A stretch of 32,384 nt of DNA, taken from positions 1 through 32,384 of the forward strand of contig JAJRVD010000085.1 in the NCBI GenBank assembly GCA_024277375.1, given 5' to 3'. Below are positions 22,283 to 29,343 of this stretch, in pieces (position 1 is the stretch's first letter; the number at the start of each line of letters is the position of its first letter). The translations under genes and the position numbers were made by a program. The notes beneath the pieces are model-generated. The model was not told the DNA's origin, searched no databases, and saw only the letters and a list, made by a program, of their open reading frames with translations. Source of the stretch: Candidatus Omnitrophota bacterium. GTDB taxonomy: Bacteria; Omnitrophota; Gorgyraeia; Tantalellales; Tantalellaceae.

Positions 22283-22337
22283 AATAGTCACCATAGCGCG
22301 GAATAGGCGCGATATACCGCAAGTTGAGGAGAATAAT

Positions 22338-23501
22338 ATGAAGATCGCAAAGAAGATTTTGGGGGTTAAACCCTCCGCTACATTGACCATAACCGCCAAA
22401 GCCAAGGCCATGAAGGCCTCTGGGGAAGATGTCATTGTGCTTGCGGCCGGGGAGCCTGCGCACGATACCCCTGATATTATAAAAGATGCCGCGATTAAAG
22501 CGATTACCGATGGTTTTACCAAGTATACGCCAGCAGCGGGTACTGCGTCTCTAAAAGAGGCTATTTGCTGTAAGCTGAAGAATGACAATGGGTTAGATTA
22601 TGATGCTAGTGAGGTGGTGGTCTCGAACGGGGCTAAGCATTCATTGTTTAATGTCTTACAGGTGATAGTCGAGGAAGGAGATGAAGTAATTGTAGTACAC
22701 CCCTATTGGGTAAGCTATCCCGAAATGATCAAATTGGCGGGAGGGCAGCCAAAGATAATAACTACTTCTATTTCAAATGGTTTTAAACTTCGCCCTCAAG
22801 AATTGAAATCCGCCATAAATGAAAATACAAGAGCCATAATAATTAACAGCCCTTCTAATCCGGCAGGTGTTGTCTATGATCAAAAGGAGCTGGAAGAGCT
22901 CGCTAAGGTGTGTGTTGAAAACAATATCACGATTATAAGTGACGAAATATATGAAAAGATAATTTTTGAAGGGAAGGCACATTTTTCTATTGCCGCAGTT
23001 TCTGAAGGAGCTAAAGCCGTGACGATCGTAGTAAATGGGCTTTCTAAAAGTCATTCAATGACCGGATGGCGAATTGGATATATGGCGGGTGACAAGGAAG
23101 TGGCAAAGATGGTATCTACATTGCAAGGGCAGTCGACTTCAAATCCGTGTTCAATCAGTCAGGTCGCGGCCGAATGTGCTTTACGCGGCAATATGGAAGA
23201 AGATTTTAGCCGGAATTGTGAAGGTTTTCAAGAGAGAAGAGATTTTCTGATGGGGACTTTATCTCAAGAGGAGCGGATAGTTCCGTTGAAGCCGGAGGGC
23301 GCGTTTTATCTCTTTTGTGATATATCAAAGTGTGGATTGGATTCTTTGACATTCGCGAAGAAGCTTCTTGAAGAAAAAAAAGTAGCGGTCATTCCGGGGG
23401 GGCCCTTTGGGGATGATCGTTATATACGCATTAGTTTTGCTTCCGATATGGAAACGATCGAAGAAGGTGTAAATAGGATTAAAGACTGGGTGGGGCATTA
23501 A
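22338..23501 (+). CDS. Class I aminotransferase, aspartate aminotransferase-like
   Basis: This PLP-dependent fold-type I aminotransferase has 387 residues. Visible landmarks are the substrate-side LAAGEPAHDTP (about 36-46), KYTPAAGTASLKEAI, NSPSNPAGVVY, ISDEIYEKIIF with the PLP-binding Asp and Tyr, and the Schiff-base lysine Lys237 in LSKSHSMTGWRIGY. The pattern is closest to bacterial/archaeal aspartate aminotransferases of the subgroup with a TGWRIGY ending. Substrate remains uncertain, as such enzymes may also use aromatic amino acids or prephenate. GAGGAG at 22326-22331 supports the ATG at 22338 over an earlier in-frame ATG at 22278. leuC-like and leuD-like genes follow. Confidence 0.9.
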   Translation: MKIAKKILGVKPSATLTITAKAKAMKASGEDVIVLAAGEPAHDTPDIIKDAAIKAITDGFTKYTPAAGTASLKEAICCKLKNDNGLDYDASEVVVSNGAKHSLFNVLQVIVEEGDEVIVVHPYWVSYPEMIKLAGGQPKIITTSISNGFKLRPQELKSAINENTRAIIINSPSNPAGVVYDQKELEELAKVCVENNITIISDEIYEKIIFEGKAHFSIAAVSEGAKAVTIVVNGLSKSHSMTGWRIGYMAGDKEVAKMVSTLQGQSTSNPCSISQVAAECALRGNMEEDFSRNCEGFQERRDFLMGTLSQEERIVPLKPEGAFYLFCDISKCGLDSLTFAKKLLEEKKVAVIPGGPFGDDRYIRISFASDMETIEEGVNRIKDWVGH

Positions 23502-23525: not shown

Positions 23526-24791
23526 ATGAGGCAAACCATTGCGGAAAAAATACTGTCGGATCATTCGGGCAATACGGTTAAAAGCGAGGATGTTGTTGTC
23601 GCGAATGTAGATTTTTGTTTTGGCCAGGATATTACAAGTAGCGAGATAATCGATAGCTTTCGAAAAATAGGCGTTAAGGACATTTTCAATAAGGAGAGAT
23701 CTTGTATGGTTCTTGACCATTCATGTCCAAGTCCTAATATAGAACTTTCGGAGGTGCATAAAAAAATACGTAATTTCACTTCTGAATATGATATGAAGAT
23801 CTTCAGTTCCGGAGAAGGAGTCAGTCATCAGGTAATTATCGAGTCGGGCAATATTACGTGTGGGGATATTGTTGTTGGCGCCGATTCTCATTCATGCATA
23901 TTTGGGGCCTTGAATGTCATGGCGATGGGTGTGGGCACAACGGATCTGGCTATAGCGTTGGCTACCGGTAAGAGTTGGTTCATTGTTCCTGAGACAGTGA
24001 AAGTTATCCTTGATGGACAATTGTCTAAGGGAGTATTTGCTAAAGATGTTATGCTGCATGTGATAGGCAATGTAGATAAGGCCTGCACGGCCTCTCGTGC
24101 AATTGAGTTTTATGGAGACGTAATTGGTGAGATGTCCGTTGACGCACGGTTTACTGTTTCCAGTGTGGCGGCAGAGATGGATGCCAAGTGTGGGATAATG
24201 CCAGCGGATAAGAAAACGATCCAATGGGCTAAGAAGTATTCCGTGAGGGAGCCGCGTCCGGTGGAAGCGGATCCGGATGCCCATTATTCTGAGATTTATG
24301 AATTTGATGTCTCCGAACTTTCTCCGCAAGTCTCCAGACCGCATGACATTCGTGAGGTTTGTGACATAGAAGACGTTGAAGGGACGGAAATAGATCAGGT
24401 TTGTATCGGATCTTGTGCTAATGGACGATTGGAAGATATTGAAGTTGCCTCAAGGATATTGAAAGGGAAAAAAGTGGCGCCGGGAGTTAAGCTTATAGTT
24501 ACGCCAGCGTCTCGAAAAATATATGTAGACGCGATGAAAAAGGGATACCTGGAGGTGCTTGTCGGGGCCGGGGCAATAATAAATAATCCCGGATGCGGAC
24601 CCTGTTCGGGGACACATCAAGGCGTTCTGGCTGATGGCGAAAACGCATTTTCTACGTCAAACAAGAATTCGAAGGGACGGATGGGGAATGTGAACGCGAA
24701 TATTTATCTTGGAAGTCCCGCTGTCGCGGCCGCGACAGCGATAGCGGGAAAAATAGCGGATCCACGGGAGTATAAGAGAAGGTTAACGTAA
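23526..24791 (+). CDS. leuC: Isopropylmalate/homoaconitate hydro-lyase family, large subunit
   Basis: A 421-residue aconitase-superfamily large subunit. The 4Fe-4S ligands are Cys297 (CIGSCANGR) with Cys357 and Cys360 (NPGCGPCSG). VVGADSHSCIFGALNVMAMG and NVNANIYLGSPAVAAATAI are also diagnostic. The ~420-residue length is that of the LeuC2/HacA-like branch rather than the ~465-residue E. coli LeuC. The reaction is isomerisation of a 2-hydroxy-tricarboxylate-type substrate by dehydration and rehydration, but isopropylmalate, citramalate and homocitrate cannot be told apart from sequence alone. It sits directly before its small subunit, with no leuA or leuB in the window. Confidence 0.88.
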   Translation: MRQTIAEKILSDHSGNTVKSEDVVVANVDFCFGQDITSSEIIDSFRKIGVKDIFNKERSCMVLDHSCPSPNIELSEVHKKIRNFTSEYDMKIFSSGEGVSHQVIIESGNITCGDIVVGADSHSCIFGALNVMAMGVGTTDLAIALATGKSWFIVPETVKVILDGQLSKGVFAKDVMLHVIGNVDKACTASRAIEFYGDVIGEMSVDARFTVSSVAAEMDAKCGIMPADKKTIQWAKKYSVREPRPVEADPDAHYSEIYEFDVSELSPQVSRPHDIREVCDIEDVEGTEIDQVCIGSCANGRLEDIEVASRILKGKKVAPGVKLIVTPASRKIYVDAMKKGYLEVLVGAGAIINNPGCGPCSGTHQGVLADGENAFSTSNKNSKGRMGNVNANIYLGSPAVAAATAIAGKIADPREYKRRLT

Positions 24792-24805: not shown

Positions 24806-25309
24806 GTGCCAAATTTTTCACATAGAGTACGGAAACAGAATGATATCACGACCGATTGTATCCTTCCTGAGAAATACAAATTTAATACGTGGACTGAAAA
24901 AGAATTGGCACAACATGTTTTTGAAAATACGGAAGAGGCTTTTCACGAAAAAGTAAAAGAAGGCGATTTTTTTGTAGCCGGAGCGAATTTCGGATGTGGT
25001 CCCTCCCGTGAACAGGCAGCATTGGCGCTTAAGGCAACGGGATTGAGGGCGGTTATCGCTAAGAGCTATGACAGAATATTTTATCGCAATGCCGTTAACG
25101 CGGGGTTGTGCCTTCTCGAATGTGAAACTAACTATATTGATGACATGGATGAGCTGGACTTGGATGCCGAGAAAAACATTCTTTTTAACAGGTCTAAGGG
25201 TGTTAACTTTGAAGTCAAGCCTATGCCTGTAATCATGAGAAAATTTATGGCATCCGGTGGGGTAATTGAATACCTTAAGCAATACGGTGATTTTGAGGAT
25301 TTAGTCTAG
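24806..25309 (+). CDS. leuD: Isopropylmalate/homoaconitate hydro-lyase family, small subunit (GTG start)
   Basis: The 167-residue swivelling-domain subunit has NDITTDCILPEKYKF near the N-terminus and the conserved GANFGCGPSREQAALALKA (about 58-76), then AKSYDRIFYRNAVNAGL. It forms the active site with the preceding large subunit. The segment after the TDxIxP motif, which in relatives begins YL and helps select substrate, reads YKFNT here, so the usual IPMI and homoaconitase loop signatures do not apply directly. GTG at 24806 has AAGGAG 6 bp upstream. The TAG shares one base with the lipB GTG. Confidence 0.87.
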   Translation: MPNFSHRVRKQNDITTDCILPEKYKFNTWTEKELAQHVFENTEEAFHEKVKEGDFFVAGANFGCGPSREQAALALKATGLRAVIAKSYDRIFYRNAVNAGLCLLECETNYIDDMDELDLDAEKNILFNRSKGVNFEVKPMPVIMRKFMASGGVIEYLKQYGDFEDLV

Positions 25310-25962
25310 TGCGAATCCGTGACTTGGGAATAGTCGGATATAAAGACGCGATCGATCTTCAGGAAAACGTGTTAAGGCGACGTATAGAAAATGAAATTTC
25401 CGATACGTTGATTCTTTTAGAGCATGATCCGGTGCTTACGCTGGGGCGGATGGAAAGCGAAGCCAGCATTATTGATAGGGCTTTCTTCGATAAAAAAAAC
25501 ATACCGGTTATTTTCTCGGATCGAGGAGGTAAGATTACCTACCATGCTCCGGGGCAGTTGGTGATCTACCCCATAGTGGACCTTAGGGAAAAGAAGCGCG
25601 ACGTCTCAAGGTATATCGATTTTCTGGAGAAGACCATGGTCAGAGCTTTTGATGGGCTTGGAGTCGCCGCGGAACGCATTGCGGATCGACGCGGAGTGTG
25701 GATCGGAGGAAAGAAGATAGCGTTTATTGGCGTGGGTGTAAGAAAATGGGTTACGTTTCATGGCGCTTGTATTAATATTAACAACGATATCGCGCCGTTC
25801 TCACGCATACATCCCTGCGGGGAAGACTGGATAAAGGTAACTTCCGTCCGGGAAATTCTAGGGCGTGCAATAGAGATGGATATGGCAAAGAAGGTTTTTG
25901 CGGATCAGTTTATAAAGGATCTTGAGGCGGAATATGGAATTAAAAATGCCGGAAATATCTGA
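25309..25962 (+). CDS. lipB: Octanoyl-[acyl-carrier-protein]-protein N-octanoyltransferase (GTG start)
   Basis: LipB (217 residues) moves octanoyl from acyl carrier protein to the lysine of lipoyl domains, the first step of lipoate synthesis. Conserved parts are LLEHDPVLTLGR, SDRGGKITYHAPGQLVIYPI, the catalytic Lys136 in GGKKIAFIGVGVRKWVTFHG, and the catalytic Cys170 in RIHPCG. The GTG start overlaps the preceding TAG by one base. The 3' end overlaps the next gene, a lipoyl domain that is a plausible substrate, by 29 bp. lipA is not in the window. Confidence 0.96.
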   Translation: MRIRDLGIVGYKDAIDLQENVLRRRIENEISDTLILLEHDPVLTLGRMESEASIIDRAFFDKKNIPVIFSDRGGKITYHAPGQLVIYPIVDLREKKRDVSRYIDFLEKTMVRAFDGLGVAAERIADRRGVWIGGKKIAFIGVGVRKWVTFHGACININNDIAPFSRIHPCGEDWIKVTSVREILGRAIEMDMAKKVFADQFIKDLEAEYGIKNAGNI

Positions 25963-26173
25963 GACCACAGAGGCGGCAGTAATTACTCTTTGGCACGTTG
26001 CTGAAGGTGCACACGTGGCTAAAGACCAGGATATCCTGGAGGTTACGACGGATAAGGCCACACTTGATATAGCGTCCCCTTATGACGGGGTTTTAATCAA
26101 GATAAGCAAAAAAGCGGGTGAAAAGGTTGAAAAAGGTGATGTTATCGCCGAGATACAAGAGAGAGGGAGATAG
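25934..26173 (+). CDS. Free-standing single lipoyl-domain protein
   Basis: The 79-residue product is one complete biotinyl/lipoyl-type domain and nothing else. ELKMPEISETTEAAVITLWH opens it, the lipoylation hairpin is EVTTDKATLDIASP with Lys41 in the DKA motif, and GEKVEKGDVIAEIQ closes the barrel. DKA rather than MKM points to lipoate, not biotin, and the sequence resembles the first domain of 2-oxoacid dehydrogenase E2, not GcvH. No E3-binding or acyltransferase domain follows, since a stop is reached and the next gene starts 1 bp later. ATG 25934 follows GAGGCGG inside lipB. A start at 25946 is also possible. Its partner enzymes are unknown. Confidence 0.88.
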   Translation: MELKMPEISETTEAAVITLWHVAEGAHVAKDQDILEVTTDKATLDIASPYDGVLIKISKKAGEKVEKGDVIAEIQERGR

Positions 26174-26174
26174 G

Positions 26175-27359
26175 ATGCAAGAGTCAAACAGAATGAAACG
26201 ATTGCCAAAATATTTGTTTACTATCATAGATGGCTTGAAGGCAGAGGCGAAGGCTACGGGTATAGATATTATAGACCTTGGGATGGGTAACCCTGACCAG
26301 CCGACTCCAAAACATATTATTGATGAGCTTTGCGCTAGGGTAAAAGATCCTGAAAATCATGGATATTCCAGGACGATAGATAATGTTGAAGTTGAATTCA
26401 GGCAAGCAATTTCCGGGTGGTATAAATCTAAGTTTAACGTTGATCTTGACTCGGAGTCTGAGGTTTTACCTTTGATCGGATCCAAAGAGGGTATAGCGCA
26501 TATCTCACTTGCCATACTTAATAATGATGATATGGCTCTGGTTCCAAACCCGGCATATCCCGTGCATTTCAATGGAGTATTAATTGCCGGGGGGATCCTC
26601 CATAACATGCCGGTAAGTGAAGAAAACAATTATTTGCCTGATTTGGATGCTGTGCCGGAAGACGTGATTGAAAAAGCTAAATTAATGTTTTTGTGCTATC
26701 CAAGTAACCCTACGTGTGCTGTTGCTCCCAGGAGCTTTTTGGCGAAGGCGGTTGCTTTTGCCAGGAAACATGAGATCATATTGGTACATGATCTCGCGTA
26801 TTCTGATCTGGCTTTTGATGGATATGAAGCGATCAGCATTCTACAGATCCCGGGAGCAAAGAATGTATGTGTAGAGTTTCATTCTTTAAGCAAATCATAC
26901 AATATGGCCGGTTGGCGTGTTGGACTTGCTGTTGGGAATGCGGAAGTTTTGGCGTCTCTTTCTAAAACAAAAGGTTATATTGATTTTGGGATGTTCAAGC
27001 CGGTACAATACGCGGCCATAAAAGCTTTAACGGGACCGCAGGATTGCGTCACAAAACAGGTGGCGATCTATAAGAAGCGACGAGATTTTATGATCGATGC
27101 CCTGGAAGAAGCCGGGTGGAAAATACCGAAACCGAAAGCGACTTTTTATCTATGGGCAAAGATCCCCGATAAGTATAGCGCGTTAACATCAGTGGAGTTT
27201 ACAGCGCTGCTTATCAGAGAGGTGGGGGTAGTGGTGTCGCCCGGAGCGGGGTTTGGGGACAATGGCGAGGGTTTTGTCCGGTTTGCATTAGTTGAAAACA
27301 TCGACAAACTGCGTGAGGCGGCAAAAAGAATTAAAAAAGTTCTTAATATGAAAGCATGA
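26175..27359 (+). CDS. alaC: Alanine/glutamate-pyruvate-type aminotransferase (AlaC-like)
   Basis: This fold-type I PLP aminotransferase (394 residues) has RLPKYLFTIIDGLKAEA at the N-terminus, IIDLGMGNPDQPTP, PLIGSKEGIAHISLAIL, CYPSNPT, HDLAYSDLAFDG, and the PLP lysine Lys240 in LSKSYNMAGWRVG. Compared from memory with E. coli AlaC, these blocks agree closely, so pyruvate/glutamate transamination to alanine is the best guess. LL-diaminopimelate aminotransferase is the main alternative. ATG 26175 is one base after the lipoyl-domain stop, within AGAGGGAGATAGG. A frame opening at 26118 is an artefact of the overlap. Confidence 0.88.
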   Translation: MQESNRMKRLPKYLFTIIDGLKAEAKATGIDIIDLGMGNPDQPTPKHIIDELCARVKDPENHGYSRTIDNVEVEFRQAISGWYKSKFNVDLDSESEVLPLIGSKEGIAHISLAILNNDDMALVPNPAYPVHFNGVLIAGGILHNMPVSEENNYLPDLDAVPEDVIEKAKLMFLCYPSNPTCAVAPRSFLAKAVAFARKHEIILVHDLAYSDLAFDGYEAISILQIPGAKNVCVEFHSLSKSYNMAGWRVGLAVGNAEVLASLSKTKGYIDFGMFKPVQYAAIKALTGPQDCVTKQVAIYKKRRDFMIDALEEAGWKIPKPKATFYLWAKIPDKYSALTSVEFTALLIREVGVVVSPGAGFGDNGEGFVRFALVENIDKLREAAKRIKKVLNMKA

Positions 27360-28477
27360 AAAAAAATGTTTTGATCTGTTACATCTCAAAGTATTCCGGG
27401 CATTTTCACGCCGCTGAGGCTATCGAAAAAGGGTTGGCCGAAGTGTGGGGTGATGTGAATGTCAAGAAGATAGATGCTCTTGAATATACCAACCCCATTC
27501 TTGGCAAGGTCATAAATAAGGCTTATCTGGAAGTCATCAAAAAGAAGCCGCAGTTGTGGGGGGAGATGTATGACAACCCGTCTGTAATGAAAAAAACCGC
27601 GAAGGCGAGGGAAGCGCTTAATCGATCCAACCTGACCAAGATAAAAAAACTTTTCGATGAATTTTCACCCGATGCTGTATTTTGCACTCAAGCTTTTCCA
27701 TGTAGCATGATAGCGGATTATAAGAGAGCGTATGGTAAAAAAACCCTACTTGTTGGCGTTTTGACGGATTACGCGCCTCATTCATACTGGTTGTTTGATG
27801 AAGTGGACTATTATGTTATGCCGTCAGAAGAAACCGCGAAGGTGTTTACCGAGAGGGGTGTTCCGGGTGAAAAGATCAAGCTCTATGGTATTCCGATAGA
27901 TCCCGGGATACGGATAGAGAAAGAAAGAGACAAGATTCGCGAGAACTTAAACTTTTCGGCTGAAAAACCAACTATTCTTGTTATGGGTGGAAGCCAGGGT
28001 CTGGGTTCGGTGGAGGACGTAGTTGGATCGTTATTACAGGATACCGAGCATAATTATCAACTCTTGGTCGTGTCCGGGACTAATAAAAAGTTGTGTTCTC
28101 GGCTTACAAAGATCGCGCGAAGTGAAATAGGCCGAAACATGAGAGTTTTTTCTTATGTCGAGAATGTCGATGAGTTGATGGAAATATCGGATGTGATTAT
28201 TACCAAAGCCGGGGGATTGACAACTGCGGAGGCATTGGCAAAGAGGCTCCCCATCTTGATAGTTTCACCTATCCCCGGGCATGAACGCATGAATACTGAT
28301 TTTCTGGTGAAAAATGGAGCGGCCATTGAGATATCTGTTTTTTTAGATACACACAAAATACTAAATGAGTTGTTTGATTCCGAAGATCGCATGAAAAAGA
28401 TGAGGGCGTGCGCGGAAGTGCTTTCCAAGCCTAATAGTGCTGTTGATACCGCTAAATTGACGCGCCGGGATTGCTGA
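27356..28477 (+). CDS. GT28-type glycolipid glycosyltransferase (MGDG synthase-like)
   Basis: The 373-residue product fits the MGDG-synthase/UgtP group. The N-terminal acceptor domain starts with a SGHFHAAEAIEKGL motif, and VKKIDALEYTNP and VFCTQAFPCSMIADY follow. The C-terminal nucleotide-sugar domain has PTILVMGGSQGLG (about 205-217), SDVIITKAGGLTTAEALAK, and PIPGHERMNTDFLVKNGAA. Members add sugars to diacylglycerol or, as MurG relatives, to lipid-linked precursors. The sugar cannot be deduced. The ATG overlaps the previous stop (ATGA), and an acyltransferase follows 2 bp after the stop, indicating envelope lipid assembly. Confidence 0.85.
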   Translation: MKKNVLICYISKYSGHFHAAEAIEKGLAEVWGDVNVKKIDALEYTNPILGKVINKAYLEVIKKKPQLWGEMYDNPSVMKKTAKAREALNRSNLTKIKKLFDEFSPDAVFCTQAFPCSMIADYKRAYGKKTLLVGVLTDYAPHSYWLFDEVDYYVMPSEETAKVFTERGVPGEKIKLYGIPIDPGIRIEKERDKIRENLNFSAEKPTILVMGGSQGLGSVEDVVGSLLQDTEHNYQLLVVSGTNKKLCSRLTKIARSEIGRNMRVFSYVENVDELMEISDVIITKAGGLTTAEALAKRLPILIVSPIPGHERMNTDFLVKNGAAIEISVFLDTHKILNELFDSEDRMKKMRACAEVLSKPNSAVDTAKLTRRDC

Positions 28478-28479
28478 TA

Positions 28480-29343
28480 ATGTTATTAAAATTGCTTTAT
28501 GTCATAGGGATTTTTTTCGCCAGAAACCTGTCGATCAGGAAGGCGTATGGTGTTGCTGAAGCCAGTGCGCGGTTTTATTATAAATTCGCCGAAAGGGATA
28601 AAAGAGAGCTGAAAGCTAATCTCAAAGTAGTTCTGGGGGAAAACGTCCCCGACGATGTGTTGGAGCGACACAGAATTGAGATCTTTAAGAACTTCGCGAA
28701 ATATCTGGTAGATTTTTTTAGATTTCCCAATCTTACAAAAGAGTATTTGGAAGAGCATATTGATACAGAGAATATTGATTGCATAAATAAGTGTTTAGAG
28801 GAGAAGAAAGGTGTAATCCTTCTTACTCTTCATCTCGGGAACTGGGAGCTGGCCGGAGCTGTTATCGCAAACGCGGTAGGCCCTGTCAACGCGATTGTTT
28901 TGGAACATTCCAGTAAAACAATAAACAATTTTTTCATACATCAAAGAGCTATTCGGGGGGTGAAGTCCATCCCCCTGGGGGTGCAGATAAAAGAATGTTT
29001 TAAAGTGCTTAAGCGTAACGAGCCGTTGGCCATAGTGGGGGATAAAGATTATACCGACAGTGGGACTAGCATAGATTTTTTTGGTAAAAAAGCCCTGGTG
29101 CCTAAAGGTCCGGCAGCTTTTGCTTTAAGAACGGGAGCTCCTGTAATCTTTACTGTATTAACCCGCGAAAAGAATGACAGGTTTAAGCTGCATTTTGAAG
29201 AACCCTTGAGATATTCACCTACGGGGGATTTTGAAAAAGACGTGAAATGTTTGATGAGTAAATACTTGGAAAGTTTCGAGAAATATATTCGTAAATATCC
29301 GGACCAGTGGTATGTTTTCAGGGAAATATGGAATCAAAAATAA
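28480..29343 (+). CDS. LpxL/HtrB-family lysophospholipid or lipid A acyltransferase
   Basis: The 287-residue protein begins with a hydrophobic helix (LLYVIGIFFA). It carries the catalytic Hx4E motif as HLGNWE (His118, Glu123), then GDKDYTDSGTSIDFFG, VPKGPAAFALRTGAPV, and PDQWYVFREIW near the end, all family signatures. These enzymes transfer an acyl chain from acyl-ACP to lipid A or related glycolipids at the inner membrane, which points to an outer membrane. The ATG at 28480 is preferred to the overlapping TTG at 28471, but the ribosome binding site is weak for both. Its end overlaps the next gene by 16 bp. Confidence 0.9.
   Translation: MLLKLLYVIGIFFARNLSIRKAYGVAEASARFYYKFAERDKRELKANLKVVLGENVPDDVLERHRIEIFKNFAKYLVDFFRFPNLTKEYLEEHIDTENIDCINKCLEEKKGVILLTLHLGNWELAGAVIANAVGPVNAIVLEHSSKTINNFFIHQRAIRGVKSIPLGVQIKECFKVLKRNEPLAIVGDKDYTDSGTSIDFFGKKALVPKGPAAFALRTGAPVIFTVLTREKNDRFKLHFEEPLRYSPTGDFEKDVKCLMSKYLESFEKYIRKYPDQWYVFREIWNQK

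Follow-up and report, generated by a model that had tools for sequence, protein, structure and literature searches.

A free-standing E2-type lipoyl domain encoded with LipB in Omnitrophota: a probable lipoyl carrier without an E2

We suggest that the small protein encoded directly behind lipB in this Omnitrophota genome, a lipoyl domain (LD) and nothing else, is very probably an independent lipoylated carrier. With less assurance, we favor a fuller account in which this LD acts without any E2, receives octanoate from LipB and sulfur from LipA, and is cycled by Lpd. A role mainly in dithiol or electron transfer is our tentative choice for its function, and carriage of acyl or aminomethyl groups in concert with an unrecognised enzyme seems somewhat unlikely. 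The textbook hosts of lipoate are the 2-oxoacid and acetoin dehydrogenases and glycine cleavage, to which LbpA has to be added; if our proposal is true, an E2-type lipoyl protein that is found across a bacterial class, and in genomes that have none of these hosts, would mean another job for lipoate.

The window, that is, the whole stretch of 32,384 nucleotides analysed here, forms contig C73 in an assembly of 2.07 Mb and 108 contigs with a tool-estimated completeness of 95.7%. The genes around the LD are these:

22335-23501, + strand: aminotransferase 1, first gene of the conserved cluster (PF00155, 1.1e-71; synteny)
23526-24791, + strand: aconitase/3-isopropylmalate dehydratase (IPMD) large subunit (NF001614, 520 bits, above cut-off), syntenic upstream
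24806-25309, + strand: aconitase/3-isopropylmalate dehydratase small subunit (TIGR02087, above cut-off)
25309-25962, + strand: lipB, octanoyl-[ACP]:protein N-octanoyltransferase, GTG start, 217 aa (PF21948, 3.9e-46)
25934-26173, + strand: standalone E2-type lipoyl domain (LD), 79 aa (PF00364, 4.5e-20)
26175-27359, + strand: aminotransferase of LL-diaminopimelate/alanine type (NF006756, 532 bits, cut-off 507)
27356-28477, + strand: MGDG-synthase/GT28-type glycosyltransferase (PF06925, 2.8e-28), conserved downstream
28471-29343, + strand: LpxL-type lipid acyltransferase (PF03279, 2e-42), conserved downstream

The LipB product scores 159.5 bits against the NCBIfam model TIGR00214, above its cut-off of 83.55, and Lys136 and Cys170, which we take to be the likely catalytic residues, are near-invariant among the 16 relatives compared. 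The stop of the dehydratase small-subunit gene and the start of lipB have one base in common, the LD ATG at 25934 lies within lipB, with GAGGCGG (read by eye) directly upstream of it, and the LD stop codon TAG (26171-26173) is separated by one base from the aminotransferase ATG (26175-26177). An earlier, sequence-only reading of this DNA had put the overlap of lipB and LD at 29 bp and the gap to the aminotransferase at 1 bp; both figures are exact to the base (overlap 25934-25962).

That reading had also described the 79-residue product as a lipoyl domain alone with a DKA lysine, and the profile search agrees: the PF00364 match spans residues 2-74, and Lys41 (codon 26054-26056) stands within a TDKA motif and is one of five positions invariant in a 27-row alignment of LDs. 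The AlphaFold model is all-beta (mean pLDDT 92.1), and its closest counterparts in the PDB are E2 lipoyl domains such as 2l5t and 1ghj. Fold, length and the TDKA lysine motif are thus common to LD and the lipoyl domains of the E2s SucB, AceF and AcoC; the E2s differ in that LD is a whole protein, devoid of cysteine and lacking both a subunit-binding domain and a catalytic acyltransferase core, and in that its genome encodes no E2 detectable by profile search. Among NCBIfam models, none represents the LD as a family, and the best matches are E2 models scoring far under their cut-offs. In being a small lipoyl carrier that stands alone and works with Lpd, LD would resemble GcvH, but the window LD does not match GCV_H (PF01597, about 122 positions) and a true GcvH coexists with it on C9, in keeping with the earlier remark that GcvH-like carriers have a different sequence and length. 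The biotin carboxyl carrier protein was considered as an identity and rejected, the motif being TDKA and not MKM, which we take to be the biotin motif, and AccB being encoded elsewhere, on C3.

Searches of the window's own genome with PF00364 gave three strong sites. One is AccB, beside AccC on C3, and the other two are standalone LDs, that of the window and one on C88. The 2-oxoacid dehydrogenase core (PF00198) was not found by profile search. GcvP lies on C9 with GcvH, and Lpd on C85 and C71. The sequence-only reading had proposed a search for lipA as well as gcvH, and both are there: LipA, at C103:860-1726, was found with a profile built from relatives (E 1.7e-103) and confirmed by NCBIfam TIGR00510 (336.0 bits against a cut-off of 310.25). 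The presence of this gene led us to reject a LipA-less carrier bearing octanoate only. We note that this LipA escapes the Pfam model LIAS_N (PF16881), and absence calls that rest on LIAS_N alone are unsafe.

The LD was then followed through 59 genomes of the class, the window's own included, of which 19 belong to family f1 and 40 to 35 other families. When searched with the window LD, 47 genomes gave a match; two of these (G035 and G044) were dropped from the count, their lipoyl domain lying only within an ordinary E2, which leaves 45 of the 59 with a standalone LD, spread over at least 26 of 36 families. The 45 include G050, whose LD shares one frame with LipA, and the frames are mostly intact, at 76-130 aa. 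In f1 the gene order is aconitase/IPMD large subunit, small subunit, LipB, LD, aminotransferase (absent in some members), GT28 and LpxL. Outside f1 the cluster starts with an aminotransferase, aconitase-type subunits, IDH, MDH, Lpd, LipB and often LipA, and ends with LD, often a second aminotransferase, and then GT28, LpxL and GT2. Relatives with identical neighbours exclude chance as the source of the lipB-LD arrangement, and where both genes occur they lie within 4 kb on one contig in 36 of 40 genomes, so that the pairing the sequence-only reading had wished to see checked in relatives is conserved. They are on separate contigs in G022, G031, G056 and G057, and in G022 and G031 LipB adjoins glycine-cleavage genes, away from LD. 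The aminotransferase often directly follows LD, other phyla included (e.g., L007, L010, L161, L166), and at many LDs it is not adjoining (L040, L042, L044, L052).

Several local variants of the cluster were seen. An Lrp/AsnC-type regulator stands between LD and aminotransferase at L176:10242-10724 (where PF01037 confirms it), L130:7278-7760, L133:7526-8005 and L049:4281-4781, and in several families a gene that looks by eye like a PilT twitching ATPase separates the genes for the large and small aconitase/IPMD subunits (L044, L052, L053). G002 has a second standalone LD (L139:7556-7795, - strand), between porin-like and formate/nitrite-transporter-like genes, with genes for a formate-dehydrogenase-like oxidoreductase and a regulator resembling Rex close by (all named by eye). 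In G050, lipA and LD form a single open frame of 366 aa (L137:2226-3323, + strand), for which the AlphaFold model gives a pLDDT of 90.4 and a pTM of 0.76. The DNA just upstream of the internal LD ATG holds a strong ribosome-binding-like stretch, AAAGGAGGAAAG, which weakens the reading as a LipA-LD fusion; the LD is likely translated separately.

The family to which the window belongs encodes Lpd and LipA outside the LD cluster, and every f1 genome with LD also has GcvH, so that LipB and LipA of the window's own organism could serve GcvH as well. In the f1 genomes looked at, Lpd closes a biotin operon containing bioB, F, C, D and A as well as a gene resembling cobalamin adenosyltransferase (L189 and L190, by eye), and frame lengths at L191 and L192 match this context; the setting of the f1 Lpd was for that reason rejected as a clue to the partner of LD.

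Eleven LD genomes, 90-97% complete, are without strong GcvH, GcvP or E2 matches (G019, G029, G032, G033, G036, G039, G049, G050, G051, G052 and G055), yet LipB, LipA and Lpd are retained in every one of them. The absences depend on metagenome assemblies that are incomplete and on how sensitive the profiles are. G021, which also has LD without GcvH, is not counted among the 11 because of a GcvP fragment at a contig end. GcvH acts with GcvP and GcvT, whereas LD persists in these 11 genomes without GcvP and GcvH, and LD as a stand-in for GcvH in a GcvH-less glycine cleavage system was rejected, GcvP being missing too. Among the PF00364 matches listed, which reach down to E of about 3e-4, those other than LD are in nine of the 11 a frame of 150-200 aa, AccB-like judging by its length, some genomes having also weak matches in frames of about 300 aa. 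A further LD-like stretch occurs in G051 (a second, E1-linked LD) and in G032 (a partial frame). A true E1 alpha is present in two of the 11 and absent from nine. The undescribed carrier that figured among the options of the sequence-only reading gains support here, LD being kept with LipB, LipA and Lpd where GcvH, GcvP and E2 are missing; in such genomes the lipoyl machinery seems to serve one client alone, which makes the job of LD searchable. Four further genomes (G025, G028, G042 and G048; 91-95% complete) are without LD, LipB, LipA, GcvH, GcvP and strong Lpd alike, and three others without LD, GcvH or E2 (G008, G016 and G046) are uninformative at 71-77% completeness.

The LipB profile is positive in 40 of 59 genomes, and LipB never occurs without LD: 40 genomes have both, five have LD only, none has LipB only and 14 have neither (Fisher p 8.7e-10; with one genome per family 21/5/0/10, p 1.2e-5), relatedness being not fully corrected for in either test. 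LipB shows no association with GcvH on the same count (28/12/11/8, p 0.39). Each of the five LD genomes without LipB has GcvH, and another transferase must serve LD there, if LD is modified. Both LD and LipB are lost in G041 and G058, in which Lpd, LipA and aminotransferase are still adjacent. Strong matches to LipA (E<1e-80) were found in 51 of 59 genomes, to Lpd (E<=1.5e-69) in 50, G037 being scored absent despite split pieces, and to GcvH in 39, a 40th match, in G028, standing at 4.7e-4; GcvP was found in 41, partial in G007, G008 and G021. LD and LipA occur together in 42 genomes, and the three with LD and no strong LipA match (G006, G007 and G018) are f1 assemblies 85-92% complete. Lpd is present in 44 of the 45 LD genomes, and the Lpds of LD clusters retain the CxxxxC pair and the C-terminal His/Glu. 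In the glycine-cleavage clusters LipA usually goes with GcvT, GcvH and GcvP, and an LplA- or LipM-like gene closes several of them, f1 included; the gene at L103 is LipM-like by eye, on its conserved Cys region, NCBIfam placing it only in the lipoate-ligase superfamily. From these sequences, we read the pattern as two putative lines of lipoylation, with LipB serving LD and LplA/LipM-like enzymes serving GcvH.

A lipoyl transferase, LipA and Lpd form the recurring set with LD, and the pathway we propose is the following. LipB, made from the overlapping gene, would move octanoate from ACP to Lys41; LipA, encoded elsewhere in the window's genome and adjacent in some relatives, would insert two sulfurs; and Lpd would cycle the resulting dithiol with NAD(H). 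Known systems that pair a lipoyl domain with Lpd need a third enzyme, which either loads an acyl or aminomethyl group or accepts electrons, and here such an enzyme would swap with the lipoyl arm either electrons, which we slightly favor, or an acyl or one-carbon group. Three steps of this scheme are inferred: the modification of Lys41, the part played by Lpd as redox partner and the exchange with a third enzyme. Our lean towards NAD(H)-linked dithiol transfer and away from acyl carriage is slight and comes from the lack of a true E1 in nine of the 11 genomes discussed above.

The opposite weighting, in which LD carries acyl or aminomethyl groups for an unrecognised PLP- or ThDP-dependent dehydrogenase or lyase and thereby permits E2-free oxidative decarboxylation, possibly at the 2-oxoglutarate node, is the most substantial of the alternatives, and we regard it as doubtful. 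The cluster outside f1, in which aminotransferase, aconitase, IDH, MDH, Lpd, LipB and at times LipA lead up to LD, presents a slot that fits 2-oxoglutarate dehydrogenase, and the LD of G039 scores best against the SucB model. GcvP is a PLP enzyme that works with a lipoyl carrier, and the PLP aminotransferase that is commonly the next gene recalls that pair. However, this neighbor scores as an LL-diaminopimelate/alanine type and is often not adjacent, and a true E1 alpha (PF00676, E<1e-50) was found in no more than 15 of the 59 genomes, among them the two GcvH-less LD genomes already counted, with no association between LD and E1 (p 0.74); the other PF00676 matches are weak and lie in frames of transketolase-like or DXS-like length, apart from a partial frame in G029 (1.8e-17). 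A lipoyl relay, which the sequence-only reading had raised, would have LipB and LipA build lipoate on LD and an LplA- or LipL-like amidotransferase then transfer it to GcvH, in the direction opposite to that of the Bacillus route. Its ingredients are in place, in that the window's genome has GcvH (C9) and LipA (C103), an LplA-like gene ends several f1 glycine-cleavage clusters and GcvH occurs in 33 of 45 LD genomes; yet the 11 genomes without a receiver, whether GcvH or E2, still keep LD, LipB, LipA and Lpd, which argues against such a relay as the general role of LD. Moreover, GcvH can do without LD, as shown by five genomes that keep GcvH and LipA and have neither LD nor LipB, and the LipM-like gene of some clusters (L103, by eye) would octanoylate GcvH directly. 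We therefore consider the relay improbable as a general role; as a side role of LD where GcvH exists, it is possible.

Two further readings are, in our judgment, very improbable. LD could be one half of a split E2, as the sequence-only reading had also suggested, parted from an acyltransferase core encoded elsewhere, and the likeness of its sequence and fold to E2 lipoyl domains would be explained. This is contradicted, at the sensitivity of the profile search, by the absence of PF00198 from the window's own genome and from 56 of 59 genomes in all; the three E2s found (G035, G037 and G044) have a lipoyl domain of their own, which leaves LD with no acyltransferase core to complement. LD might equally be a decaying relic of a lost 2-oxoacid dehydrogenase, E2 and E1 being gone from most of the class. 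The sequence-only reading had held that LD would better be seen as a relic if its pairing with lipB were not conserved and a complete E2 existed elsewhere, and neither is the case, the pair being kept as described and the genome having no E2. A relic would not be expected in 45 of 59 genomes and at least 26 of 36 families with mostly intact frames, nor with five residues invariant in 27 aligned rows, the lysine included, and LD stays linked to LipB and is lost jointly with it, not at random. We return to the autonomous carrier as the preferred reading.

The nearest published free lipoate protein is LbpA of the sHdr sulfur oxidation system, a GcvH-like protein (PMC6067878, PMC10332631). As described there, LbpA shares with LD its standing outside the classical complexes and attachment machinery encoded nearby; it differs in being GcvH-like, usually with two conserved cysteines and LplA-like ligases, whereas LD is E2-type, has no cysteine and goes with LipB and LipA (PMC6067878, PMC10332631). 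No sHdr genes were recognised among the neighbor genes of LD that were inspected. A precedent for the electron-transfer version of our proposal is established in peroxide reduction, in which Lpd and a lipoylated E2 (SucB) feed AhpD or Ohr/OsmC (PMC8945050). By analogy, Lpd and LD could likewise form an NADH-driven dithiol donor, the difference being that the lipoyl domain of that system belongs to a full E2 (PMC8945050). Phrase searches of the open PMC literature yielded no account of free-standing E2-type lipoyl proteins, of an LD-type lipoyl protein in Omnitrophota, or of a lipoyl domain with a hexapeptide/NeuD acyltransferase.

A scan of wider genomes with one short pattern returned 45 loci, some of them evidently contigs of the class genomes already surveyed. 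Most are titled Omnitrophota, and the other metagenome titles are Auribacterota, NPL-UPA2, Nitrospirota, Poribacteria, Sumerlaeota, Brocadiia, Planctomycetota, UBP3, Abyssobacteria and simply bacterium. Loci of Brocadiia and Auribacterota have LipB and LipA genes upstream of the LD; by eye, the order is LipB-LipA-LD in Sumerlaeota (L174), and Lpd-LipB-LipA immediately precedes the matched stretch in Brocadiia (L180). The same aminotransferase comes after LD (by eye) in NPL-UPA2 (L157) and Poribacteria (L166), and behind it stands homoserine dehydrogenase, directly in L157 and with one gene between in L166. In its broadest form our proposal, which we offer as a serious possibility short of a preference, is that Omnitrophota and several other uncultured phyla have a relay from NAD(H) through Lpd to a lipoyl carrier that is free of both E2 and the glycine cleavage system, in which a bare LD with its own LipB and LipA would be a dedicated dithiol or acyl carrier and, in some genomes, is the only client of lipoate found.

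A second lipoyl system was observed in glycan gene clusters. That of the window's own genome, on C88 (L005:160-3801, - strand), comprises E1alpha, E1beta, a polysaccharide deacetylase, a hexapeptide acyltransferase and an 82-aa standalone LD, and further examples lie at L140:7189-10173 (+), L142:7969-9489 (+) and L141:7374-10165 (+). This looks like an E2 whose core has been swapped for a sugar acyltransferase, and its gene content would suit an acyl-lipoyl group acylating a glycan. In G023, E1alpha and E1beta are followed by a 360-aa protein that joins a lipoyl domain, PglD_N and a hexapeptide acyltransferase, and G056 encodes a 507-aa lipoyl and hexapeptide protein.
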